Below are positions 13,441 to 64,000 of a DNA stretch of 64,000 nt, piece after piece. The notes under the pieces are model-generated. The model saw only the letters and a program-made list of their open reading frames with translations, ran no database searches and was not told where the DNA came from. The position numbers were made by a program, and so were the translations under genes. The number at the start of each line of letters is the position of its first letter. Positions within the stretch are counted from its first letter, which is position 1. This DNA comes from Muribaculaceae bacterium (lineage in GTDB: Bacteria; Bacteroidota; Bacteroidia; Bacteroidales; Muribaculaceae), in NCBI GenBank assembly GCA_022510385.1, contig JAFLTQ010000013.1, positions 1-64,000 of the forward strand, read 5' to 3'.

Positions 13441-14592
13441 TTACTCAGCGATACAGATAGCAACGCGGTTTTGAACTGCGTCAGGATAAGGCTGATACAT
13501 GTCTTCGCCCATGCTCTTAACGATCATACGTGAAGCGGGGATGTAGTATTTCTCTTGAAGAGCTTTAGCAACAGCCTGGCTTCTTTGAGCGGAAAGACGA
13601 AGGTTGTAAGCCATAGAACCTGTACCCTTGTCAGCGTAACCTGTGATAGTTACAGTTGCATCCGGGTGGCTTTGGAGGTATTCAGCAACCTGAGCTACTT
13701 TCTCCATCTCTTGAGGACGGATCACGTATTGGTTGATGAGGAAGAATACGTCACGACGCAATACTTCTTTCTCCACTTTCTTTTCTTCTACCTGAACAGG
13801 CACTTCTACGATCTTTTCTACTACTTTCTCAACGATAACAGGTTCCTGAACCGGTTCTTCAATCACGCGAGTGTTTACGTTGTATTTCGGGCCGAAGCTC
13901 CAACCTACACCGAGAAGAGCGTTGAAATACCAGTCGGTATTGTCATAATGTTTTGAGTTGTAGTTATCGTTTACGATGTTAGCCATAAGCTCGAGACCGA
14001 TTTGAACGCGTGAGCTAACATTGAAATTAAGAGCGCAACCGAACTGGCTGAGGAATCTCCATTTACCGCCGCCCCATGCATTGAGACCTATACCGTCGCC
14101 GTAAGCGTCAGCGATAGATGCCTGAAGCTTCTGTGCATCTTTATTATGCCATGCATAGTTAACACCGAAACCTGCAAGAAGGTCTACTTCACAAAGACGT
14201 GTCGGGTTGTAGCCACCGATAAGGTTGGTGAGGTCAACAACTGCATCAAGTGTAGGAGCTACATAGTTCCATTTGTAGTAAGCAGTCTTTCCACCGTTCC
14301 AGAGATTTTCTACTGATGCATAAGGATTGATGGCGATTGCTCCACGGCTTGCCCATGCATTAACTGCAAGACGCATACCGATGTAAGGGTTGAACTTATA
14401 GCCGGCAGCTAATTGAGCGTTTCCGCTAAGGAGCTTGCCAAACTTGCCTTCACCAAGAGTTTCCTGACCTCCGATTTGGGCCTGCATAAACCAATGAGGT
14501 TTGAATACATATTCAGTGACTGTCTCCTGTGCGTTAGCGCACACACCTGCGAACAGGAGAGTAGCAGTCAGAAAAATTTTATTTAACTTCAT
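13441..14592 (-). CDS. OmpA-family outer membrane protein
   Basis: Signal peptide; C-terminal VTITGYADKGTGSMAYNLRLSAQRSQAVAKAL OmpA-like peptidoglycan-binding domain. Confidence 0.9.
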   Translation of the reverse strand: MKLNKIFLTATLLFAGVCANAQETVTEYVFKPHWFMQAQIGGQETLGEGKFGKLLSGNAQLAAGYKFNPYIGMRLAVNAWASRGAIAINPYASVENLWNGGKTAYYKWNYVAPTLDAVVDLTNLIGGYNPTRLCEVDLLAGFGVNYAWHNKDAQKLQASIADAYGDGIGLNAWGGGKWRFLSQFGCALNFNVSSRVQIGLELMANIVNDNYNSKHYDNTDWYFNALLGVGWSFGPKYNVNTRVIEEPVQEPVIVEKVVEKIVEVPVQVEEKKVEKEVLRRDVFFLINQYVIRPQEMEKVAQVAEYLQSHPDATVTITGYADKGTGSMAYNLRLSAQRSQAVAKALQEKYYIPASRMIVKSMGEDMYQPYPDAVQNRVAICIAE

Positions 14593-14631
14593 TTCCTAAT
14601 TTTTTTACAGTTTTACTAAACTACTCTCTAA

Positions 14632-16689
14632 TTATTTCACTTTTACGTAATAGTTCTGCATTGAGCAAACACCATGGTAGTCAACTGCCATATAGGTAAC
14701 AGTGAGAGTTTGGCCTGATTTAGCACTTGCAGGAAGAGCTACAGTTACATAGTCAGTGTCTCCTGAAAGCACTGTATTCAAGTCGCCTGTGTTGTCAGCA
14801 GCTGTAGCAGGAACGCCATCGATAGCTGTGATAGCAACATACTTCTTGTAAGCCGGAACGATGAGTTCGCCGTTGTATGAAGTAAGGAACATATCGAATG
14901 CACCACCAGCAACGATACCGTCTGTAGCAAGAGTAGACATGCCGGCTACACCACCGTCAACTGTCTCATAGAGAGCGCAGATCTGGAAGTATTTAGCAGG
15001 ATCTGAGATAACATCATTAATCCTGTTGGCAAATCTGTTGTAGTAGTCGATAAGTGACTGAAGTCTGTTGATCTTGGAGTCACTTGAGTAATCTTTAACC
15101 TTAGCCTGAAGTCTCTTTAACTGATCGTTAATTGTACCGATTGACTTGTTGATGCTGTCGATAACAGTGTTGATTTGTTTCTGTGAATCGTTACCTAATG
15201 ATTCAAGAAGGTCAGCTAAGAATGCATCCAAAGAACCCGGTTCCGGATCAGCAATACCGCTTGAACTGTATGAAAGTTCTGCTGTACCAATCTTTTCTCC
15301 ATTTTCATCATAGACTACAACTTCGATTGTGCCACCTTCTCCTGTATATTTGAACTCAACTTTAACAGGTTCAACCAAGTCGATGTCAGAGATCAAATCA
15401 TCAAGTTCATCGTTGATCTTCTTGATATAGTCTGAGAGCGGTGAGTTGAATGTAGGAAGCTGAGGATTGCCATCGAAACGATCTTTGATCTTGTTAGCAA
15501 GAGTCACACCGTTTGCATATGAGAGCGGATGAGCAACGATTGCTGCATAGTCATAACCGGTCTTATAAGTGTTGGCAGTTTCTGACTCTGTGAATTTAAC
15601 TTCGTCACCATCAAGCTCATAACCACCATCAGCCAAAGCAGTAGCCTCTTGTTCTTTCCATGATACTTCGAGTGCAAGAGCCGGAACTTTATTATTGACT
15701 GCATCAAGGAGAACTTTACCCAATGAAGCGATGTCAGCAAGGTCTTTGTTGCTCAAGAAGTTTTCGAAAGCATCTTTAACACTGCTCTTGTCAAATGCCA
15801 AGTAGAGATCCTCATAGTTTGACTCTGTAGCAGTAGCGCTCAAAGTATAAACACCGGGAACAGCAGCCTTAGTGCCGAATTTAATAGCCTCATCGTTTTC
15901 TCCGGGCTCATATTTAGCAAGTGCAAGTTCTTTATTAGCGCTGCTCAATACGGTTTCGCCGAGAGAGTTAACGAAATTATAGGTGTAAACCTTATCGTCA
16001 GAGAAGTCAACATCAGACGGGTTGATAGTAACGAGGGCGCCACCTAAGTTGCCTAACTCAACAGAACCGAGAGAAACAGGATCTGAGAAACCTTTAGATA
16101 AAGATTGAGCAGAGGCAATAGCGTTGATTGTGCTTAGAGCAGCCTCATCGTAACCCCATGCGATGTCTGAAGCATCAACTGCCGGGAAGTTTACGGAACC
16201 GTTGCTCGGTTTGAATTCGTAAGTAGCGAAAATTGTGCTGTTGATTCCAAGCGGAGTTGACAAGCCACCGAAAGCCGGGTTAACAACATGGCTAACTTCT
16301 ACAGAAGCGGGACGCATGTTGATGTTGTCGATGTTCGCAAGGTTAACTTGGATCTGTTGGAACCACTCTTCGCCCGGGAAGATTTCCTGGAAGAGGTAGT
16401 CATAAAGACCCTGAATGTAAGGTTCGAGTACATCCCAGTGATTGCCTGCAGGACCTTCCTTGATCATTTCCCAGATTTTGTCAAGATCTTGGTCGTCGAG
16501 CCAAGCTTGAAGATTGCTCTTGAAAGTATCATCTGTGAGATCACGGATAGCGTCCAATTGGTCTTGGAGGCTGATCTGGCCTACGAGGACGTCGTTTCTG
16601 AAGTCCTCATCCTTACAAGAAGTGAATGTTCCGACTCCACCGGCGGCTACAGCGAGCACCAGCAAGCCGTTGAGTAATTTTCTATTCAT
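14632..16689 (-). CDS. Putative surface lipoprotein of unknown function
   Basis: N-terminus MNRKLLNGLLVLAVAAGGVGTFTSCKDED has a lipobox-like Cys; 685 aa. Confidence 0.6.
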   Translation of the reverse strand: MNRKLLNGLLVLAVAAGGVGTFTSCKDEDFRNDVLVGQISLQDQLDAIRDLTDDTFKSNLQAWLDDQDLDKIWEMIKEGPAGNHWDVLEPYIQGLYDYLFQEIFPGEEWFQQIQVNLANIDNINMRPASVEVSHVVNPAFGGLSTPLGINSTIFATYEFKPSNGSVNFPAVDASDIAWGYDEAALSTINAIASAQSLSKGFSDPVSLGSVELGNLGGALVTINPSDVDFSDDKVYTYNFVNSLGETVLSSANKELALAKYEPGENDEAIKFGTKAAVPGVYTLSATATESNYEDLYLAFDKSSVKDAFENFLSNKDLADIASLGKVLLDAVNNKVPALALEVSWKEQEATALADGGYELDGDEVKFTESETANTYKTGYDYAAIVAHPLSYANGVTLANKIKDRFDGNPQLPTFNSPLSDYIKKINDELDDLISDIDLVEPVKVEFKYTGEGGTIEVVVYDENGEKIGTAELSYSSSGIADPEPGSLDAFLADLLESLGNDSQKQINTVIDSINKSIGTINDQLKRLQAKVKDYSSDSKINRLQSLIDYYNRFANRINDVISDPAKYFQICALYETVDGGVAGMSTLATDGIVAGGAFDMFLTSYNGELIVPAYKKYVAITAIDGVPATAADNTGDLNTVLSGDTDYVTVALPASAKSGQTLTVTYMAVDYHGVCSMQNYYVKVK

Positions 16690-49760: not shown

Positions 49761-50093
49761 CTATAATACCGAGTCGATTCTTGTTACTTTTGATAAGCGG
49801 GACATGAAATCCGGATTCATTCGGGCCTTCTGTTTATTATAAAGATTTTGAAGACGGATCCATATATCCGCATCAATCCCTAAAGCTGCTTCTAATAGCA
49901 GCGCGAATTCAATGTTCACGGATCGTTTCCCGTTAATAATCTCATTCAGAATTGATGGTTGCATCCCGATCTTTTCGGCGAGTTGCCTCTGAGTTATACC
50001 TCTTGATAAAATCTCGTCTTTAATATATTCTCCCGGATGTATAAGATTACTGGGAAACATATTCTCGGTTAGTCTATATTCTGCATTTGCCAT
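49761..50093 (-). CDS. higA: HigA-family antitoxin (HTH_XRE)
   Basis: IHPGEYIKDEILSRGITQRQLAEKIGMQPSILNEIINGKRSVNIEFALLLEAALGIDADIWIRLQNLYN. Confidence 0.92.
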   Translation of the reverse strand: MANAEYRLTENMFPSNLIHPGEYIKDEILSRGITQRQLAEKIGMQPSILNEIINGKRSVNIEFALLLEAALGIDADIWIRLQNLYNKQKARMNPDFMSRLSKVTRIDSVL

Positions 50094-50103
50094 AATTCTT
50101 TAT

Positions 50104-50421
50104 TTATTGATAATGATTAGACAATTCAATTATATGACATATTGTCAATATCGGATGTTCTTCGTTTAAAGTAACTGTAAATTCTATTCTATATTGATCA
50201 TTTACTTTTACTGAAGAAAGCCCTGCTTTATCTCCTTTTAAGACTTCATAATGTAAGGACTTGATCTGCCATAATGTTTCAATAGATTCCGCAGTTCTCA
50301 AAAAGTTTATCGCTTTCTGATAACCCTTGATGATTTGAGGCTGGTATCGATGCTTTTTATCATCTGATCTTCCTTCTGTATAAAGTTTGAGGAGATATTC
50401 ATTTTCAAAGGAAACTTCCAT
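50104..50421 (-). CDS. higB: HigB/RelE-family toxin
   Basis: SLHYEVLKGDKAGLSSVKVNDQYRIEFTV; directly upstream of higA. Confidence 0.88.
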   Translation of the reverse strand: MEVSFENEYLLKLYTEGRSDDKKHRYQPQIIKGYQKAINFLRTAESIETLWQIKSLHYEVLKGDKAGLSSVKVNDQYRIEFTVTLNEEHPILTICHIIELSNHYQ

Positions 50422-50828: not shown

Positions 50829-50860
50829 TTTGATGATACCGTCTATAAGAATTAATTTTG
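50829..50860 (+). promoter_or_regulatory. Bacteroidetes-type promoter for toxin-antitoxin pair
   Basis: TTTG at 50829-50832, TAATTTTG at 50853-50860, 20 bp spacer, 19 bp before the ATG at 50880. Confidence 0.65.
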
Positions 50861-50879
50861 TATTTTATAAAAAAGGTTA

Positions 50880-51112
50880 TGACTCAAATAATAGTAACAT
50901 TAGAACCGGGAGCAGACACATTCTTTCTTAAACGAGTCATTGATAACATGAAAGGAGTATTCAAAACTTCTGTGGAAGAGAATTCTAAATCTGTGACTAA
51001 TGAAAATAAAAGCAGTGAATGGCTTGAAAAGCTCCACCAAATTAAACGGGATATAAATCCTGATGTGATTGATATGAATGATGAAAGGACCAGATATCTA
51101 ATGTCAAAATGA
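50880..51112 (+). CDS. Putative antitoxin of a PIN-domain module
   Basis: 77 aa MTQIIVTLEPGADTFFLKRVIDNMKGVFKTSVEE...; overlaps the PIN gene by 4 bp. Confidence 0.75.
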
Positions 51113-51516
51113 AAAGATTATTTCTGGACACAAACTTCATTATAGATTATTTTGTAAGAGAGGATTTTAAAGGAGATTGTGAGAAACTCTTAGCCAATGG
51201 TTCTGAAAGAGGCTATATTTTTTGTGTCTCCTATCTTTCAATTGCAAACTTTGCTTTCATAATGAGGAAGGAATCAAAGGAGTTGCTTCTTTCACTAATA
51301 AAAAGAATATGCGAAATTTTTGAAGTAATTCCAAATAATAAAAATCAAATAGAAGTCTCCCTGTCAATTGAAGCAAAAGATTATGAAGACGTTTTGCAAT
51401 ATGTATCAGCAGTTGATGGGAACTGCGATTGTATAATTACGAGGAATGAAAAAGACTATAGTTTTTCAGAAATTCCGGTATTTCCTGCTACTGAATTTAT
51501 AAAGAAATATTTTTAA
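51109..51516 (+). CDS. PIN-domain toxin
   Basis: MKRLFLDTNFIIDYFVRED...; conserved late acidic region NCDCIITRNEKDY. Confidence 0.88.
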   Translation: MKRLFLDTNFIIDYFVREDFKGDCEKLLANGSERGYIFCVSYLSIANFAFIMRKESKELLLSLIKRICEIFEVIPNNKNQIEVSLSIEAKDYEDVLQYVSAVDGNCDCIITRNEKDYSFSEIPVFPATEFIKKYF

Positions 51517-55904: not shown

Positions 55905-56798
55905 TTAATCATCATCTATAGAGGGATCCGGTTCTTGTGCCCATTGTCTCTCGCGTTCACGTTCTGCCAGTTTCTTCCAGGAATCTATATGTTTAATTAT
56001 ATTTTGCCTCCTCTCTTCCGGAGTATCGGGAGGAAGATTTTCCAACCGGTCTTGGTAAAGATTTGCTATTGATTCAGCGGCAACCCAATCTCCAAATCCA
56101 TAGGCATCTTCCCAATACTTGCGTGCCAGACGGAATCCCTTTTCAGCGTCACAACCTATTCCTTCGGCATATAAAGCTCCCATTCTATATGAGTAATCAT
56201 GGGGATTGAAATTAACAGCTTCTTGAGTCCAATGGAAAATTTTTTCAGCAAGATCCTTAGTCCTATGTTCCTCCGGAATCACCATATCCACAAACCATTG
56301 GTCGTAATAATAGTCACTTAGTTTACATGCTGCTTCTCCCACCTCTTCACCTATGGCTTCATAATGTTCCACTGCCACTTCAGGATCTCCGCCTCGTGCC
56401 ATATCCATAAAAAAGTCACCCAACCAAAGATGGGCAACCTTAGACCACCTGCTATCTGTTTGACTACACCTTTCCATGAAGGTTTCAGCATCATAATGAT
56501 CATATTTCTGGCGCGGCCCTCCAAATTCCTGATCAGGAGTCTCCGCATTCTCACACATATGTCCTAATATGTATAGTGCGGTCCCTTCATTTTCCTTTGC
56601 TGCAGTTTCAGCATATTCAAATGCTTTTTCCAAATCCTGCTCAACGCCTATGCCGTCATAATACATCATTGCCAACAAACCGGTGCTTTCCGTGGAAACC
56701 GGTGCCTTCAGCACCAATTCTGCAGCTTTTGTATATGCATCAGGATCTTCATCTTCCAGTGCCAGAATATCATAAAATTCGTCAGACAGTCTTCCCAT
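55905..56798 (-). CDS. Sel1-repeat-like protein
   Basis: GLLAMMYYDGIGVEQDLEKAFEYAETAAKENEGTALYILGHMCE and YRMGALYAEGIGCDAEKGFRLARKYWEDAYGFGDWVA. Confidence 0.85.
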   Translation of the reverse strand: MGRLSDEFYDILALEDEDPDAYTKAAELVLKAPVSTESTGLLAMMYYDGIGVEQDLEKAFEYAETAAKENEGTALYILGHMCENAETPDQEFGGPRQKYDHYDAETFMERCSQTDSRWSKVAHLWLGDFFMDMARGGDPEVAVEHYEAIGEEVGEAACKLSDYYYDQWFVDMVIPEEHRTKDLAEKIFHWTQEAVNFNPHDYSYRMGALYAEGIGCDAEKGFRLARKYWEDAYGFGDWVAAESIANLYQDRLENLPPDTPEERRQNIIKHIDSWKKLAERERERQWAQEPDPSIDDD

Positions 56799-56812
56799 AA
56801 CCCTTGTAATAA

Positions 56813-57031
56813 TCAGTCAAACATAACTCGTGGATTCATAACAGCCGGCGATTTCCAATCAATACCATATTTTTCTTTAAGAATTCGTTTTTTTTCATAC
56901 CAATAAATATGGCAGAATCCCATACCTTTGGGTTTATCTTTTAGTAATTGATCCAATTCTTTTTCTACATATTTGATCACAGCTTTATATTCGGCTGTAT
57001 CTTCGATTGGATCATGTTTCAACGGGCTCAT
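56813..57031 (-). CDS. Small conserved-looking hypothetical protein
   Basis: 72 aa MSPLKHDPIEDTAEYKAVIKYVEKELDQLLKDKPKGMGFCHIYWYEKKRILKEKYGIDWKSPAVMNPRVMFD, embedded in the operon with a 20 bp overlap. Confidence 0.65.
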   Translation of the reverse strand: MSPLKHDPIEDTAEYKAVIKYVEKELDQLLKDKPKGMGFCHIYWYEKKRILKEKYGIDWKSPAVMNPRVMFD

Positions 57032-57776
57032 CTATTTTAATTGTTATAATGGTTATATTATCTCTTCCTCCCTCGTTCTTTGCAAGTTCTATCAATTTAT
57101 AAGGCTCAAAAAAGTTTTCTTCAATCATTTCATCGCTCACAAGATCACTCAAACCATCCGAACAAAACAGATAACTGTCTCCGGCTATCGGTTCATATAT
57201 TGAAATATCTGAAAAGAAATCTTTGGGCTCATTTCCTAAGAAATTGTAGATAAGGTTGCTCGGGGTCTCCGGATTCCCGGTGCGTTCACGTTCCGAATGA
57301 TCTGTAGAAAGTTGTTTTAGCACTCCGTTTCTCAATCTATAGCAACGGCTATCGCCAATATTAATGATAAAAAGACTTGTTTTATCAATTATAATACCCA
57401 CAAAGGTAGTGCCCATCTCTCTCAACTCAGGACGCAACTTTCCGGTTTCTAACACCAGATTATTAGCATTGACCGCCCATTGTTTTACTGCTTCTATGGT
57501 TTCACTATCTTCCTTCGGTAATCCTTTCTTGATAAAACTGCTGAAAGAACGGCAAACAATCTCGGAAGCAACCTCTCCACCTTCGTATCCTCCCATGCCG
57601 TCTGCAACGGCAAATGCAACTGCAGGATTTTCTTCAGAAAGATCAATTTCTCCCTTTGTCTCACCGTCACGGATAAGTTTCCCGGCCACATAGGCCATGT
57701 CTTCATTGTTTTTCCTGACACAACCTATATCGCTTATGGCAAAATATGATATTTTTTCTACGGAATTATCACTCAT
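57012..57776 (-). CDS. PP2C-family serine/threonine protein phosphatase
   Basis: AFAVADGMGGYEGGEVASEIVCRSF, LFIINIGDSRCYRLRNGVLKQLSTDHS, LFCSDGLSDLV, GGRDNITIITIKI. Confidence 0.95.
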   Translation of the reverse strand: MSDNSVEKISYFAISDIGCVRKNNEDMAYVAGKLIRDGETKGEIDLSEENPAVAFAVADGMGGYEGGEVASEIVCRSFSSFIKKGLPKEDSETIEAVKQWAVNANNLVLETGKLRPELREMGTTFVGIIIDKTSLFIINIGDSRCYRLRNGVLKQLSTDHSERERTGNPETPSNLIYNFLGNEPKDFFSDISIYEPIAGDSYLFCSDGLSDLVSDEMIEENFFEPYKLIELAKNEGGRDNITIITIKIDEPVET

Positions 57777-58324
57777 CCTACAATTACATCAAAGATATAT
57801 GTTCCAAGGTCTACAACATCTCCTTCCTGGAATTTCATCGGGGTGCCGGGTTGCAGCTCCACATCATTTATTAAAGTGCCATTTGTGCTTCCAAGATCTA
57901 CGATATACCAATCTCTACCTCGTTTCTCAAACTTTGCGTGCTTGCGCGAAATCAGATTACAATTTGAGAGAAGATGTTCATAAGGACTGTCGCTTCTACC
58001 GATTATGGCCTCATCTTGCGGTCGAAGTTGAATGTGCCCTTTCCTGGCTTTCAAAACTAAACCTATTCTTGCTATCCTGCCACCTACCGTGGTGTTACCA
58101 TAATCTACAAGATCCTCCTCTTCCTTAGTGGTTTTAACAGTAGTATCCGGTTTTTTCTCGACTTTCCCTTTTGATACCATAGGTTTCCCACACTCGGCAC
58201 AGAAATCATCAGTGCCAAGTGCCCCGCAATTCACACACTCAAGCAATTCAGCACCGCATTGGTCGCAGTATTTGCTGTCATCAGGTATCATTTCTCCGCA
58301 CGACGGACATTCTATCTCTTTCAT
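57773..58324 (-). CDS. Double zinc-ribbon FHA-domain protein
   Basis: CPSCGEMIPDDSKYCDQCG and CVNCGALGTDDFCAECG, then FHA motif IIGRSDSPYEHLLSNCNLISRKHAKFEKRGRDWYIVDLGSTNGTLIND. Confidence 0.95.
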   Translation of the reverse strand: MKEIECPSCGEMIPDDSKYCDQCGAELLECVNCGALGTDDFCAECGKPMVSKGKVEKKPDTTVKTTKEEEDLVDYGNTTVGGRIARIGLVLKARKGHIQLRPQDEAIIGRSDSPYEHLLSNCNLISRKHAKFEKRGRDWYIVDLGSTNGTLINDVELQPGTPMKFQEGDVVDLGTYIFDVIVG

Positions 58325-58338
58325 AATTATTCTGGCTC

Positions 58339-60894
58339 TTAATCAAACTTAGGTATATCGGCTGCCTCAATGGTGGTAAGTGAATCCGGATCTGCATCAA
58401 TAATGGAAGGGTCGTTGGCAATCCTGTTACCTTGCAATTCCACTACTGCATTAAGCAGATTGACTACCTCACGTGCATTCCCGAAATGCTGGCGTTTATT
58501 AGCCACCATTCCCTCAATATGTGCTTTTACTGCCTCTTCGGCCTCTTTTGTCAGATTGAACTTCCTCTTCTTGGCATTCATCATGAAGATTTCAAACAAT
58601 GCTTCGGCATCATAGTCTTCAATGTGGAAATTCTTGTTGAATCTACTCATAAGTCCGGGATTCCCTCTTCTCACGAGTTCTTGCATACGGTCTTTATAGC
58701 CGGCAATTACCACTACAAATTTACCCTTGTCATTCTCCATTCGGGTCATCAAGGCATCGAGGGCTTCATTGCCTGTATTGTTCATGCTTCCCGGGTGGGG
58801 GAGAAGGTTATAAGCCTCATCGATGAAGAGCACTCCTCCCATTGCCTCGTCAACTGCCTTATCCATGTTTTGGCCCGACGCGTTTACATAGCTTGAAAGA
58901 ATAGTCTTAGCCTCCCTCTCTATTACTTTATCTGTAGGTAAAACTCCGGCTGCATGGAGCACTTCTCCGAGGCGTTTTGCTATAGTAGTCTTGCCGGTTC
59001 CTGGATTACCGGTGAGGATAATGTTCACCGGCTGCAGTGCAGCGGCTCCGAGACCACGCTCCATCCTCATTCTGTTGACCATGGCAACGTTTGCGAGTTT
59101 TCTTATCTCTTCTTTAATATCCGTCATCCCTATAAGGTCGTCCATTGAAGAGATGACCTCGTCTACAGTCTTGGCTTGTTTTTCATTTCCGTTGATGTCG
59201 GCCATTGTAATTACAAATTCCTGACTCTTGTCAAAGCCTCCTTCTTTGATGGCTTTCTGCACTCTGGAGTTCTGAACCTTTATAGCCTTGTCTACAACAT
59301 TTCTCACATCCCTGGCGTTACCGAAATCTTTCTTGCGGCTCACATACATCTTTTCGAAGAATTTGTCGATCATCTTGTCGGCTTGCTCATCGAGAGTATA
59401 TCCTTGTGATTTAATCATTCTTCGTGCTATTTCCGTAAGTTCCGGTCCCTTATAGTCCCTGAAATCAATTGTTTCATTGAAACGTGATGATAATCCCGGG
59501 TTCGCATTCTCTATGAAATAATCCATCTCTCTGGGATAACCCGCAAGAATCACAACAAGTTTACCCTTACGGTCTTCCATATTCTTGAGCATAACCGTCA
59601 CTGCTTCATTGCCGAATTGATCATCAGAGCCGTTCCACATGTTATATGCTTCATCGATAAAGAGTATTCCACCCATCGCCTTGTCGAATGCGGCGTCTAC
59701 CATCGGGCCCGTATGTCCCACATACTGACCTCTTAAATCCTTGGGCGCTACCTCAATCAATTGGCCTGAGGTAAGAATTCCCATTGCACTGAGTGCATCA
59801 GCAAATACTCTCGCCATTGTGGTTTTGCCCGTACCGGGATTTCCCAAGAAAAGATAATGGTCTTTTAATTCATAGGTCTTATCCGGATGAAGTTTCTGGA
59901 AAGACTTGATGGAATCAACAATTCCGGTCATAGTCTTCTTGATTTCATCGACTCCTACAAATTTGTCGAATTCACCCATCACTTCATCCAAAGTCTTTGG
60001 AACATATTCTTTACCATCTATATCCTCCGGTAATATCTCTTTTGGAGTCTTACCTTTGCCACGCATTGTGGCTTTCATCACGATATCATTGGTTTTTGAG
60101 GAAGCCAAATGAGCATTGCCAAACTTTACTGAGTTTCTTCTTTCATAATTTATTACCCTCACAAGTTTATCATATGCCTCTTGAGTTAGTGGAAGTTTAA
60201 AATGCTCGAGTAGCATTGCTTCTGTAATATCAGCCACTTCCAATGCTGTCAATTCCTCAAGTTTTATATGTTTTGCAAAAAGATTCTTTATTTCAGGATT
60301 TCTTTCCACGAACGAAGCCATTTCCGGCCCTCCGGTCATAAGCACAATCATTTTATCGTCGGTATTCACCAATTTGTTTCTCATATTAGTGAATACATAA
60401 TGCAGTGGTGTCCCGACCAAATCATCTGAACCATCGGAGGGTAGCAATTTATCTGCATCATCCAGACTTAACATTTGCAATGGCTTTTCTGCAAGATTAA
60501 GTTGGTCAATGGATAATGAGGTATAAAAGTCCATCTCCTCTAATTTCACGATGCCCTTATTAAGAAAATAATCCTCTATAGCATCCCTGAAATGTGATTT
60601 TCCACTTCCTGTAGGCCCGGTTATAAGTATATTTGAATTTAAAGTATTCAACACCGACTTTCCTCTTTGTTTCATTAAGGCAAGGATAGTCGTAACAAAT
60701 TCTCTTATCTGTTCTTTCTTTTGATCAAGGCCTATGATTGCATCGAGATCATCCTTTTTCTCTCGTTTTATTTTCCTTCTACCTCCCTTTGCGACAGTAA
60801 TTTCTTCTACCACCGGAAGTTTTTCACCGCAGAAGCGACAAAAAATTGCTTCTTCACGGTTATCCTTGTTACATTTATCACACTTTTTCATCAT
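58339..60894 (-). CDS. Zinc-ribbon protein with three AAA modules, the last two CbxX/SpoVK-like
   Basis: CDKCNKDNREEAIFCRFCG; Walker A GPTGSGKS, GNPGTGKT, GNPGTGKT; Walker B LSLDDADKLL, GGILFIDEAYNMW, GGVLFIDEAYNLL. Confidence 0.93.
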   Translation of the reverse strand: MMKKCDKCNKDNREEAIFCRFCGEKLPVVEEITVAKGGRRKIKREKKDDLDAIIGLDQKKEQIREFVTTILALMKQRGKSVLNTLNSNILITGPTGSGKSHFRDAIEDYFLNKGIVKLEEMDFYTSLSIDQLNLAEKPLQMLSLDDADKLLPSDGSDDLVGTPLHYVFTNMRNKLVNTDDKMIVLMTGGPEMASFVERNPEIKNLFAKHIKLEELTALEVADITEAMLLEHFKLPLTQEAYDKLVRVINYERRNSVKFGNAHLASSKTNDIVMKATMRGKGKTPKEILPEDIDGKEYVPKTLDEVMGEFDKFVGVDEIKKTMTGIVDSIKSFQKLHPDKTYELKDHYLFLGNPGTGKTTMARVFADALSAMGILTSGQLIEVAPKDLRGQYVGHTGPMVDAAFDKAMGGILFIDEAYNMWNGSDDQFGNEAVTVMLKNMEDRKGKLVVILAGYPREMDYFIENANPGLSSRFNETIDFRDYKGPELTEIARRMIKSQGYTLDEQADKMIDKFFEKMYVSRKKDFGNARDVRNVVDKAIKVQNSRVQKAIKEGGFDKSQEFVITMADINGNEKQAKTVDEVISSMDDLIGMTDIKEEIRKLANVAMVNRMRMERGLGAAALQPVNIILTGNPGTGKTTIAKRLGEVLHAAGVLPTDKVIEREAKTILSSYVNASGQNMDKAVDEAMGGVLFIDEAYNLLPHPGSMNNTGNEALDALMTRMENDKGKFVVVIAGYKDRMQELVRRGNPGLMSRFNKNFHIEDYDAEALFEIFMMNAKKRKFNLTKEAEEAVKAHIEGMVANKRQHFGNAREVVNLLNAVVELQGNRIANDPSIIDADPDSLTTIEAADIPKFD

Positions 60895-61832
60895 CTAATA
60901 TGCGTTGTTTTTCCGTTTCGGTCTGTTCTGTAAGTACCCAACGGGCCTATATTTGTCACACTGCCATCGGCATTCTTAATGTCCATACCCCTAAATAGAT
61001 AAGCGGCTCCTATCATCAGACAGATTGAAAATAAGAAATTGATAACTACAAAAATTGCTGATATTACGGTTAATACCGTTCCAATAATAAGCAAAACAGT
61101 GATAATTGTATTTGCAGTTCCGTCAACACGTCCTACGAATCCATATAATTTATAAGAGAATATCATCAGGGCAGCCCCTAAAGAATAGGGTACCAGTAGG
61201 GGAGTAGCAATCCAATAACCCACATCATCCGGGTTCACCCACCACGTGGCATCCGTGCCTACTGAAATAGCGGCTCCTATTTCAAGTACTGAAATAACAC
61301 ATAAAGGAAGAACGAACGCCCATTTCATTAAAAATGTCACATTGGGGAAAACTCCGAGAGCAATGAGAATTGTACCGGATATAAAGGCACATAGAAGTGC
61401 CAGTAAGCCCGGTAAAGGGGTCCTGTAGAAATCACCAAGTTTCGTGTTACTTAGATAATTTCTTATTCCCAATCCTGATGTTAATTCTCCATTTTCATTA
61501 ACCGGTTTTAAATCTTTTTTGGGGAAAGGGTCAACATAAAATTTCCCTTCATGTTCAATTATAAAGGATTCTTGGCTAATATAAGGAGTGCCGGAATAGT
61601 TTAAGGATTTATCCGGCTTTATTTCGAATCCTCCTACTTCAATACCATTTTCGAGGTAAATATGTGGCTCCGATTTTATATATTTCCAGTTTTCACCTTC
61701 CCTTTCCACCGGAACAAATCTTGCCTTTCCGGCTTTGTTGGAGATAACATATCTCTGTGGCTCGTTATCTGCCAAGGAATATGAAATACCGGTGAGTAAT
61801 AAAATTATAAATAGAAAGTATTTCTTCATCAC
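60891..61832 (-). CDS. Membrane protein with signal peptide, unknown function
   Basis: Signal peptide MMKKYFLFIILLLTGISYSLA, soluble N-terminal region, several TM helices; 4 bp overlap with the AAA gene. Confidence 0.75.
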   Translation of the reverse strand: MMKKYFLFIILLLTGISYSLADNEPQRYVISNKAGKARFVPVEREGENWKYIKSEPHIYLENGIEVGGFEIKPDKSLNYSGTPYISQESFIIEHEGKFYVDPFPKKDLKPVNENGELTSGLGIRNYLSNTKLGDFYRTPLPGLLALLCAFISGTILIALGVFPNVTFLMKWAFVLPLCVISVLEIGAAISVGTDATWWVNPDDVGYWIATPLLVPYSLGAALMIFSYKLYGFVGRVDGTANTIITVLLIIGTVLTVISAIFVVINFLFSICLMIGAAYLFRGMDIKNADGSVTNIGPLGTYRTDRNGKTTHIR

Positions 61833-61845
61833 TAATAGATTATTA

Positions 61846-64000
61846 TTATTTCAGTGTGTCTTCTCCAAGTATATTACTTGAAGATGGTTTTTCCTCATTA
61901 ACTTCCTGAGGGGCATCTTCGATAATTATTTCCTCCGTAGGTTCTTCAATATTTACTACAGGCGCCTCTTTTTTCTTTGCCGGAGCTTGCTTTTGTGTTG
62001 AAGAAGAAGAGGTTGATTTTTGACCCTTGTCGGTATTTGTTAATGGGGTTTTCGTGAAAATCACTTCATTCGCTAAAGTTTTCCTGTCATAGTATAATCC
62101 TCTCCATTCCTTAGTTCTGGAATTATATTCCGCATCAAGATTTTGTTTGTTGTAAGATCCGGTTTTAACCATGAAACTAAAAGATTCCGGAATAGTGTCC
62201 TTTTTACTGCGCACCCATCCTATAGCAGGAACCGGAGCTTGATTACCTATCTTTATCGTACCATAGATATTTTTCCCATCCTCTATTGTATCAATTTGAC
62301 ATACTATTTTTGTGCCGGTTGGTATTTTGAATTCCCAAGTGCCGAGCACCCATTGACCGGCAACTACTTTTTCTTCTCCAACTCTACCATAAACCCATGA
62401 ATAATGGCCGCTCAACTCCGGTGTCGCAAAAAACCAGATAAGGAATATCATCCATACAGGTGCAGCCCAGAACCAACCCACCGAGGCCATACCACTACGG
62501 GTTGCCTTGTCATAACTTCTTTGCCTTTGAGAATAAAGAGTAAGTGCATTTTCAACGTTTTTCTCATCAGTATCTCTAAAAGTGAAATATAAGGCATCCA
62601 ACTGACGATACTCAAACATATTGCCCGAAATTACTTTACCTCCGGTATCTACCTTATCACGTCGGAACAGAGATGCAACAGAGAAAATTGCGCCACCCAA
62701 GACTAAAGCTCCAACAATGAAATATAATACTGAAGGGAACCAGGCAAAACCGGCCCACGCTATAGCTGCCACTATCAAACCACCGATCGCCCCTGGCAAC
62801 AAAGAGCCGAAGAAACCTTCAAACAAAATTCCGGCACATATTGCAATAGCTATGAAACAGATAAACCATGTAGCCAAGAAATTTCCGGAAATTGGATTGA
62901 CATCCGGTATTGCAAAAAACCATGACAATCCTAATATCATCAGGGTAGGTATACCGGCAAGTAGAAGGAAGAAAATTCTATTTCTTTTTACCTTCTTGTC
63001 GCTCTTTTCAAGTTTTTTAGAAGCCGAATCAATCTGTTTTATGGCCTTGTTATATCTCTGGGCATAATAATCTTTGGGATCTAACTTGCTTATAAATTCT
63101 ATATATTTGGCAGTCTCCTTTTCATAGGTGAACTTTTTGGATAGATCTAATTTTGGATTCTCTTGGAAGAAGACTGTTAACCAAGCGTCAAGCCATGCCA
63201 CGGGAGTGCCATCTCCGGTGGGCATTTCATTCTTATCACCTCCCAAAGCTTTGGCCACTACATCCTTAGGAAAATTTTTCAATTGGTCAGGTGAATCAAT
63301 CACTTTCCCATCCAAGGTATAAGTAGGTGCTTTCCCTAAAAAGCCGGCAACTGACTTATAGGCGCCTATCACTGTGTCATACGGACCCGCTTTCTGAATG
63401 TTTTCCTCATTTTCAACGTCCATACAATATCTGTTCCAATTCAGGAAGTTAAAATATGCTTCCCCACGGGCACGCAAATAGTCTCCGATATAACTTCCGT
63501 CCATATCTTCGAAGAATGCTACCAACATGCCGTCATCATCCTTTCCGGTCTGACAGTCTGTGAGTAAATCCGCCAGGTATTCTCCTACCTCTTGAATTGT
63601 ATAAACCCGTTTTTCCGAATCTTCATCCGTATTAAAATCAACATCTACATTGGGATCCAATTCATATAGAATTCTAAAAGGAGAGTCAGAATGATAATAA
63701 ATGGATTCTACATCATCATCGCTGCTGTCGATCAGTTTCCTTATTTTACCTGCCAATGCCGGGTCTCTATATGCCAACCATAAAATAAACCCCGGAGACT
63801 TAAGCATTGCCTCATTTGTGTCATTTACATAGCCACCATCTTCTTGTATGTAACCAAACAGTTCATCAATAGTTGTTGCAAATTCAAAAGTGCCGCGAAC
63901 TTCAACCGGTAGTGGCAGGTCGTTAAACTGCTCCGCAAGATAATAAGCTGCCAGATAGGCATTGAGATCATAGTCGCCGGTGTCGAAATTATCATCTATC
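61846..64000 (-). CDS. Large multi-TM protein, 5' end beyond the window
   Basis: The frame stays open upstream of the listed Met through 64000 (IDDNFDTGDYDLNAYLAAYYLAEQFNDLPLPVEVRGTFEFATTIDELFGYIQEDGGYVNDTNEA-MLKSP). TM pairs mid-protein, charged P/E/S-rich C-terminus. Confidence 0.75.
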   Translation of the reverse strand, partial: IDDNFDTGDYDLNAYLAAYYLAEQFNDLPLPVEVRGTFEFATTIDELFGYIQEDGGYVNDTNEAMLKSPGFILWLAYRDPALAGKIRKLIDSSDDDVESIYYHSDSPFRILYELDPNVDVDFNTDEDSEKRVYTIQEVGEYLADLLTDCQTGKDDDGMLVAFFEDMDGSYIGDYLRARGEAYFNFLNWNRYCMDVENEENIQKAGPYDTVIGAYKSVAGFLGKAPTYTLDGKVIDSPDQLKNFPKDVVAKALGGDKNEMPTGDGTPVAWLDAWLTVFFQENPKLDLSKKFTYEKETAKYIEFISKLDPKDYYAQRYNKAIKQIDSASKKLEKSDKKVKRNRIFFLLLAGIPTLMILGLSWFFAIPDVNPISGNFLATWFICFIAIAICAGILFEGFFGSLLPGAIGGLIVAAIAWAGFAWFPSVLYFIVGALVLGGAIFSVASLFRRDKVDTGGKVISGNMFEYRQLDALYFTFRDTDEKNVENALTLYSQRQRSYDKATRSGMASVGWFWAAPVWMIFLIWFFATPELSGHYSWVYGRVGEEKVVAGQWVLGTWEFKIPTGTKIVCQIDTIEDGKNIYGTIKIGNQAPVPAIGWVRSKKDTIPESFSFMVKTGSYNKQNLDAEYNSRTKEWRGLYYDRKTLANEVIFTKTPLTNTDKGQKSTSSSSTQKQAPAKKKEAPVVNIEEPTEEIIIEDAPQEVNEEKPSSSNILGEDTLK

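Follow-up and report, generated by a model that had tools for sequence, protein, structure and literature searches.

A Bacteroidota gene cassette in which a threonine motif common to kinase tail and FHA reader suggests a phosphorylation-switched AAA machine

To our knowledge, few bacterial Ser/Thr kinases have a known trigger or output, and the literature searched offered little on Ser/Thr kinase signaling in Bacteroidota. One end of the window (the whole 64,000-nucleotide stretch of DNA analyzed here, which comes from a Bacteroidales bacterium of the gut) raises this question in a concrete form: what do a PP2C phosphatase, an FHA protein, a multi-AAA protein, and membrane proteins do together, and where is the kinase that such a set would seem to call for? 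An earlier note had described these genes as a tight run on the minus strand, had read them as a membrane-associated machine gated by phosphothreonine, and had suggested that a kinase might lie beyond position 64000. The tight run is borne out by the gene coordinates, and the kinase by a catalytic domain at 64477-65172 with intact HRD, DFG, and APE motifs.

Organization of the Locus

All of the window genes between 55905 and 64000 lie on the minus strand, and the reading frame from 61846 is still open at the window edge. The overlaps reported earlier as 4-20 bp are exactly 20 nt (57012-57031), 4 nt (57773-57776), and 4 nt (60891-60894), with the remaining intergenic gaps of the run measuring 13-25 nt. 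Past 64000 the operon extends through a zinc-ribbon gene, a second membrane protein gene, and a small reading frame with one transmembrane (TM) segment. Its genes are as follows.

55905..56798, minus strand: SEL1-repeat protein, 297 aa, accessory (Pfam Sel1, 33.5 bits against a cut-off of 30.7; in 11 of 37 loci)
56813..57031, minus strand: P72, 72 aa, accessory (alignment and fold of a long form)
57012..57776, minus strand: PP2C-type Ser/Thr phosphatase, 254 aa, core (PF13672, PP2C_2, 57.5 bits)
57773..58324, minus strand: double zinc ribbon plus FHA adaptor, 183 aa, core (PF00498, 58.9 bits; DZR, 36.6)
58339..60894, minus strand: zinc ribbon plus three AAA modules of the SpoVK/CbbX/EccA class, 851 aa, core (Pfam AAA and AAA_lid_6)
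60891..61832, minus strand: MEM313, accessory membrane protein (hydropathy; in 8 loci)
61846..65724 (window part 61846..64000), minus strand: receptor-like Ser/Thr kinase, 1292 aa, core (Pfam Pkinase)
65741-66649, minus strand, outside the window: zinc-ribbon protein, 302 aa, core
66675-67934, minus strand, outside the window: MEM419, membrane protein of 419 aa
67956-68129, minus strand, outside the window: one-TM reading frame, 57 residues

A response regulator and histidine kinase pair (68219-70738) was considered as part of the system and mostly rejected: a probable terminator hairpin lies between it and the operon, it accompanies the cassette in three loci only, and other genomes of the genus have the pair but not the operon. 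A scan with a Bacteroidales promoter pattern gave one match, at chance level.

The Receptor-like Kinase

Of the two membrane proteins described in the earlier note, MEM313 is indeed a separate gene. The other, at 61846-64000, does not stand alone; its reading frame continues to 65724 into an N-terminal half that bears the Pkinase domain (86 bits in one search, 82.6 in another), so that the supposed membrane protein amounts to the last 717 aa of a kinase of 1292 aa, and the missing kinase is present and fused to it. The portion within the window comprises a helical region, about five TM segments, and a C-terminal β domain. A structure search with the helical and β regions returned no PDB match at E<1e-3 from a poor model (pLDDT 61, 10 sequences). 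The catalytic Lys, HRD, DFG, and APE residues are invariant or nearly so among 12 homologues. The N terminus is a tail of tandem threonine repeats, encoded here by a 51-bp repeat array at 65428-65667, outside the window. The sequence of the repeat is specific to each clade, with the types HATGRA/HSTGRA, DKTLKP, STVRP/TIRP, SGTQRP, and DKT[IV]R represented.

Conservation of the Core and Variation of Accessory Genes

The order zinc-ribbon protein, kinase, multi-AAA protein, zinc-ribbon FHA protein, and PP2C recurs in some 18 complete loci, always with the five genes on a single strand, and spans at least six Bacteroidota families. The genes co-occur in fixed order across the phylum, so the refuting case named in the earlier note, a neighborhood analysis without co-occurrence, fails. 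In L151 and L152 the FHA gene is not accompanied by a PP2C gene.

Around this core the accessory genes vary among loci and include SEL1, the P72-domain protein, the two membrane proteins, DUF1963, and SUKH. P72, which has no Pfam match, is by alignment a stand-alone version of the C-terminal 70-aa domain of helical proteins of 265-271 aa that occupy the same place in other loci. The fold predicted for the long form consists of TPR-like helices (pLDDT 72) and has no PDB match at E<1e-3. By hydropathy, MEM313 has a signal peptide-like N terminus, an extracytoplasmic domain, and three or four TM segments; nothing in it scores above a Pfam cut-off. The phosphatase carries DGMGG, GDSR, and SDGLSD motifs and scores 151 bits, below the cut-off, against the NCBIfam Stp1/IreP model.

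The Multi-AAA Protein

The AAA protein has three, four, or five modules depending on the locus. In the three-module form encoded here, Walker A motifs occur at residues 93, 351, and 629, and a canonical Walker B is found in modules 2 and 3 only. Among solved proteins, CbbX and EccA1 are nearest to it in sequence. The score against the NCBIfam SpoVK model TIGR02881 (451.4 bits, above the cut-off of 422.95) is spread over three stretches of the 851 aa, and with three Walker A modules and a zinc ribbon the protein is not of the single-module SpoVK form (model length 261). The EccA model gives 378.7 bits, below its cut-off of 466.65, though three stretches match. Full-length relatives (E<1e-150) occur only in genomes with the kinase gene adjoining (7/7).

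A Threonine Motif Common to Kinase Tail and Adaptor

The phosphothreonine-binding residues of the FHA domain (GR, S..H, and the Asn of GSTNGT) are invariant among 13 homologues, and its closest solved relatives include GarA/OdhI and Bdellovibrio DgcB. Between the zinc ribbons and the FHA domain of the adaptor lies the motif NTTVGGR (residues 77-83), and in many loci the FHA protein likewise bears, outside the FHA domain, the tail motif of its own kinase. When a motif model derived from the kinase tail alone was ranked against the 179-333 threonine sites of each locus, the site in the FHA protein came first in L040, L092, L093, and L094, and in three of five held-out loci (L140, L141, and L147); it failed in the other two, ranking 30/231 in L148 and 45/248 in L151. 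The FHA proteins of L053 and L054 lack the shared motif, although their kinases have repeats.

In the type-A loci the pattern [DNHG][KNT]T[IV]G..R, which was composed after both the kinase and FHA sequences had been seen, is confined to the kinase N terminus and the FHA linker among 79,376 aa of predicted reading frames. In these loci the model derived from the repeats does not pick out the FHA linker, except in L040; where it fails, the linker instead resembles the first N-terminal motif of the kinase. As a genome-wide DNA pattern the type-A motif is uninformative, with 53 matches versus 93 in a reversed control.

FHA domains usually read the +3 position. In the shared motif the conserved positions are -1, +1, and +2 instead, so that it may reflect the preference of the kinase rather than FHA binding.

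A Proposed Mechanism and Its Alternatives

At the level of sequence, the occurrence of one threonine motif in both kinase tail and reader suggests a phosphorylation-switched machine, and we put at about even the chance that the cassette is a membrane-bound phosphothreonine switch controlling an AAA remodeling machine. In such a switch, the receptor-like kinase would use its TM region and extracytoplasmic domains to sense an envelope signal, probably assisted by MEM313 and MEM419, and would autophosphorylate the threonines repeated in its own N-terminal tail as well as phosphorylate the same motif in the zinc-ribbon FHA protein. The FHA domain could then dock in trans on the phosphothreonines of the multivalent tail, and could also bind in cis, or FHA to FHA, via its own motif, with PP2C reversing the marks. 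Through assembly mediated by zinc ribbons, the assembled or released FHA complex would engage the zinc-ribbon multi-AAA ATPase, which may remodel a putative client near the membrane. More tentatively, this may represent a previously undescribed, Bacteroidota-wide type of envelope signaling, in which a receptor kinase provides a multivalent phosphothreonine platform for a motif-bearing adaptor, whose recruitment switches a machine of 3-5 AAA modules on or off, the motif having diversified jointly in kinase and adaptor. If so, that joint diversification would insulate parallel systems from one another.

The repeats might instead be autophosphorylation sites that only tune kinase activity, with the FHA domain reading a different partner, in which case the shared motif would reflect substrate preference. 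The conserved positions suit kinase specificity, and the motif-free adaptors of L053 and L054 also favor this view, but a fixed adjacency of FHA and kinase genes together with a multivalent tail is what a docking platform would need, and we regard tuning alone as unlikely. A role as accessory to a secretion system with its structural genes at another place in the genome, either in the threonine phosphorylation pathway of the type VI system (T6SS) or in a T7SS/EccA-like system, would account for a kinase, FHA, and PP2C triad like that of PpkA-Fha-PppA (PMC5995506) and for the resemblance of the AAA modules to EccA and EccA1. This role seems very unlikely: the EccA score falls short of its cut-off, VipB (PF05943) gives no match in the 98%-complete genome (a divergent Bacteroidales T6SS could escape that model), no T6SS or other secretion genes recur beside the 37 loci, and ESX components are found neither among the Pfam and NCBIfam matches of the operon nor among those recurrent neighbors.

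Also doubtful is a phosphorylation-based defense or toxin-antitoxin module, in which kinase or AAA activity would be harmful if unleashed, PP2C would restrain it, and an invader would trigger it. There is precedent in the prophage-borne kinase-kinase-phosphatase (KKP) module, where a kinase/phosphatase set can act in such a manner (PMC11341870), and the distribution is patchy, with the cassette in only 2-7% of genomes, with counts of 8/393 genomes for the order and 8/396 for the phylum, and with two deeply diverged clades within one genus; the presence in some loci of accessory families like SUKH and DUF1963 would fit as well. Against this, the cassette has neither a nuclease nor any other obvious effector domain, and the PADLOC 2.0 anti-phage models give no system-specific match, only generic kinase and AAA cross-hits. 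Nor do the searches point to a phage, prophage, or plasmid origin: 50,697 phage records gave no match, a scan of viral contigs turned up no relative, and the kinase mid-region found no counterpart in plasmids; the plasmid matches to the AAA protein, at 29-34% identity, seem to be generic proteins of the CbxX type. Conserved housekeeping-type neighbors flank the cassette in one family, which suggests vertical inheritance there.

Significance

For the phosphothreonine switch proposed here, one gene cluster of fixed order supplies the sensor, the reader, the eraser, and the likely output motor. Because the probable phosphosites can be read as repeats common to kinase and reader, a phosphoproteomic or peptide-binding experiment can be designed directly. 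We know of few clients for AAA proteins of the SpoVK/CbbX/EccA class, so that a regulator linked to such a protein genetically would be of help in the search for more.

Comparison with Known Systems

The view that this is not a named system such as the T6SS pathway or T7SS holds, as the full locus has no match in PADLOC, NCBIfam, or the literature searched, where no published name for it was found. GAP1-N2 GTPase conflict systems, an actinobacterial theme, combine a kinase bearing a zinc ribbon or TM helices with an adjoining PP2C (PMC7159879), but their GTPase, GAP1, and vWA proteins are not found here. KKP likewise brings a kinase, a PP2C, and an FHA domain together; its layout, however, is a PP2C followed by two small kinases that carry CSD and FHA fusions, with no AAA protein mentioned, whereas this cassette has one kinase and places the FHA domain on a separate zinc-ribbon protein.

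The AAA modules with AAA_lid_6 resemble those of CbbX, SpoVK, and EccA, but three to five of them stand in one chain behind a zinc ribbon, the first with a non-canonical Walker B. As in the GarA/OdhI and DgcB switches, a threonine motif lies outside the FHA domain; in those switches the FHA domain binds that motif after its phosphorylation (for Bdellovibrio DgcB, PMC6733907). Unlike the small GarA/OdhI form with its N-terminal ETT motif, the adaptor has N-terminal zinc ribbons and a different motif, which is repeated in the kinase tail, and its locus has no metabolic enzyme or GGDEF partner.

The T6SS threonine phosphorylation pathway also encodes a Ser/Thr kinase, an FHA protein, and a PP2C phosphatase together, and in the PpkA-Fha1-PppA pathway of Pseudomonas aeruginosa Thr-362 of the FHA protein is itself a phosphorylation site (PMC5995506). 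The present cassette differs in that it comes without T6SS genes, its FHA protein carries zinc ribbons, its kinase has a threonine-repeat tail and a long helical region, and its fixed partner is a multi-AAA ATPase.

Completion of the operon past the window edge

Re-reading of contig G000:C5 (74,796 bases, the window being its first 64,000; genome 2.72 Mb, 98% complete) reproduced all of the minus-strand genes and overlaps described in the earlier note. The kinase that the note had placed, as a possibility, beyond 64000 is found there once the contig is extended, and same-strand genes continue beyond it (locus L004, contig 60000-74796).

Genes at and past the window edge
61846-65724, minus strand: Ser/Thr kinase, 1292 aa; ORF crosses the window edge
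After the kinase ORF, past the window edge, minus strand: zinc-ribbon protein ZNR302, 302 aa
After the zinc-ribbon gene, past the window edge, minus strand: membrane protein, 419 aa
After the 419-aa membrane protein, minus strand: one-TM ORF, 57 residues, closely similar to an ORF at the same place in locus L038

Past the one-TM ORF, an 89-nt gap contains a GC-rich hairpin and then a T-rich stretch, beyond which lie a LuxR-type response regulator and a TPR histidine kinase (contig 68219-70738, outside the window). This pair occurs without the operon in 5 other genomes of the genus (L113-L117), and in L113 (genome G027) a SEL1-family gene directly follows it, as though the intervening cassette were absent. 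A few kb away from the operon are two toxin-antitoxin-like pairs recognized by eye, one HigB/HigA-like and one a small protein with a PIN-like partner (49761-50421, 50858-51516). Elsewhere in the genome are two more Ser/Thr kinase genes (C45:40098-40622 and C34:107133-107528; 368 and 259 aa) with no surrounding cassette.

Domains of the encoded proteins

The kinase matches Pkinase at 82-86 bits, and its lysine, HRD, DFG, and APE positions are invariant or almost so among 12 homologues, two sequences of the genus's diverged form (type B) having DWG. Residues 917-1100 include about five hydrophobic segments. The AlphaFold model, poor overall (pLDDT 61), has a confident helical-repeat region between kinase domain and membrane segments and an eight-strand domain past the last of these, which would be extracytoplasmic if the segments are odd in number. 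The FHA protein combines a double zinc ribbon with an FHA domain retaining all phosphothreonine-binding residues, and the PP2C protein has its catalytic motifs. The small protein P72 corresponds to the detached C-terminal domain of a 265-271-aa protein occupying the same place in other loci.

In the AAA protein (851 aa) an N-terminal zinc ribbon precedes three Walker A motifs, the first module being without a canonical Walker B; relatives have four Walker A motifs at ~1110 aa or five at ~1390 aa. Expansion is by whole modules, from three to four to five, in otherwise equivalent loci (L050, L075, L077, L091-L094). CbbX proteins remodel protein complexes, and, judged by family, the AAA protein should do likewise.

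Conservation of gene order and distribution

Conservation of gene order, which the earlier note had proposed checking, was examined in 37 loci, mostly MAG contigs. The string zinc ribbon, kinase, AAA, FHA, PP2C occurs in the window and 17 others (L040, L042, L044, L045, L050, which has an extra AAA fragment, L053, L054, L075, L077, L092, L093, L094, L140, L141, L146, L147, and L148). In some loci of the window's form (type A), the membrane protein MEM313 sits between kinase and AAA genes. The remainder show contig-end cuts, an inserted gene (L078, L090, L091), or a missing member: PP2C in L151 and L152, zinc ribbon and PP2C in L142; L038 stops after FHA. Upstream of the kinase, a very large ORF replaces the zinc-ribbon gene in L142 (356-5173; 1605 aa) and L143 (2756-6433; at least 1225 aa). 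The kinase profile also finds Bacteroidales kinase/PP2C clusters with no recognized FHA or AAA neighbors (L079 9782-17377, L080 8764-13569), possibly a separate kinase-phosphatase system.

In searches spanning some 1,300 genomes from a single phylum, the kinase profile matched 8 of 393 genomes of the order, 8 of 396 in a phylum sample, and 11 of 151, 6 of 80, and 3 of 79 in three families. The window's genus holds two deeply different forms, type A (window, G040) and type B (G001, G012, G042, G050); AAA identity is 94% between the window and G040 and about 40% between types. Type A is nearer (67-70%) to cassettes in MAGs whose record titles name Bacteroides and Prevotellaceae than to type B, the other form in its own genus, which suggests that the cassette has moved horizontally or been lost repeatedly. 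In G025 and G008 the left flank (AMP-ligase/GNAT/esterase) stands without the operon.

A threonine motif shared by kinase tail and FHA protein

At its N-terminus the kinase has a low-complexity tail built from tandem units, mostly with one threonine each. In the window's operon a 51-bp repeat in 4.7 copies encodes DVHSTGRASGRGGNQEA, with DKTIGGRR ahead of it; units elsewhere include HATGRA (two to three copies), DKTLKPD-like (seven), STVRP/TIRP, SGTQRP, and [DE]KT[IV]R. Outside their FHA domains, the FHA proteins have counterparts of these units: NTTVGGR/DKTIGGR in the type-A linker, ATIRP in the L147 linker, HSTGKG in L040 (HATGKA in its kinase), and, near the C-terminal end, DKTVRI (L093), EKTVRI (L094), and DATVRV (L092). 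Those of L053 and L054 are without the kinase-tail motif. The acidic tail of the L050 PP2C (14464-15381), of ~50 residues, ends in IDKTKR, which resembles its own kinase's DKTLKP repeat and may be a further phosphosite.

With motif models trained, for each locus, solely on that kinase's own tail, an FHA-protein site ranked first in 4 of 14 scored loci and, in a second set fetched afterwards, in 3 of 5 (FHA share of threonine sites about 3-7%), counts that are not independent because the loci are related. Both second-set failures have tails with just two weak repeats. The type-A shared pattern occurs in kinase and FHA protein only, among 79,376 aa, a descriptive result because it was composed after viewing both proteins.

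Proposed mechanism

Read most simply, these sequences would encode a circuit of writer, reader, and eraser built around an ATPase. Its kinase would phosphorylate its own tail as well as the adaptor, which would dock via its FHA domain, and PP2C would erase the phosphorylation. Both halves of such a switch have precedents, as the FHA protein is a kinase substrate in the T6SS pathway (PMC5995506) and Bdellovibrio DgcB has its own phosphorylated tail bound by its FHA domain (PMC6733907). Zinc ribbons occur on all three soluble partners (AAA, FHA, ZNR302) and may hold them together.

Comparison with known systems

The earlier note recognized no named system, T6SS TPP and T7SS included, and this stands: membership in the T6SS pathway, EccA/T7SS, KKP, GarA/OdhI, and PADLOC systems was rejected. 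The gene set was not found described in the open-licence papers searched, so a name published in a subscription journal may have escaped notice. The operon is best rated as a putative Ser/Thr kinase-FHA-PP2C circuit, a known kind, in which the fixed partner and the self-encoded phosphosite array appear to be new.
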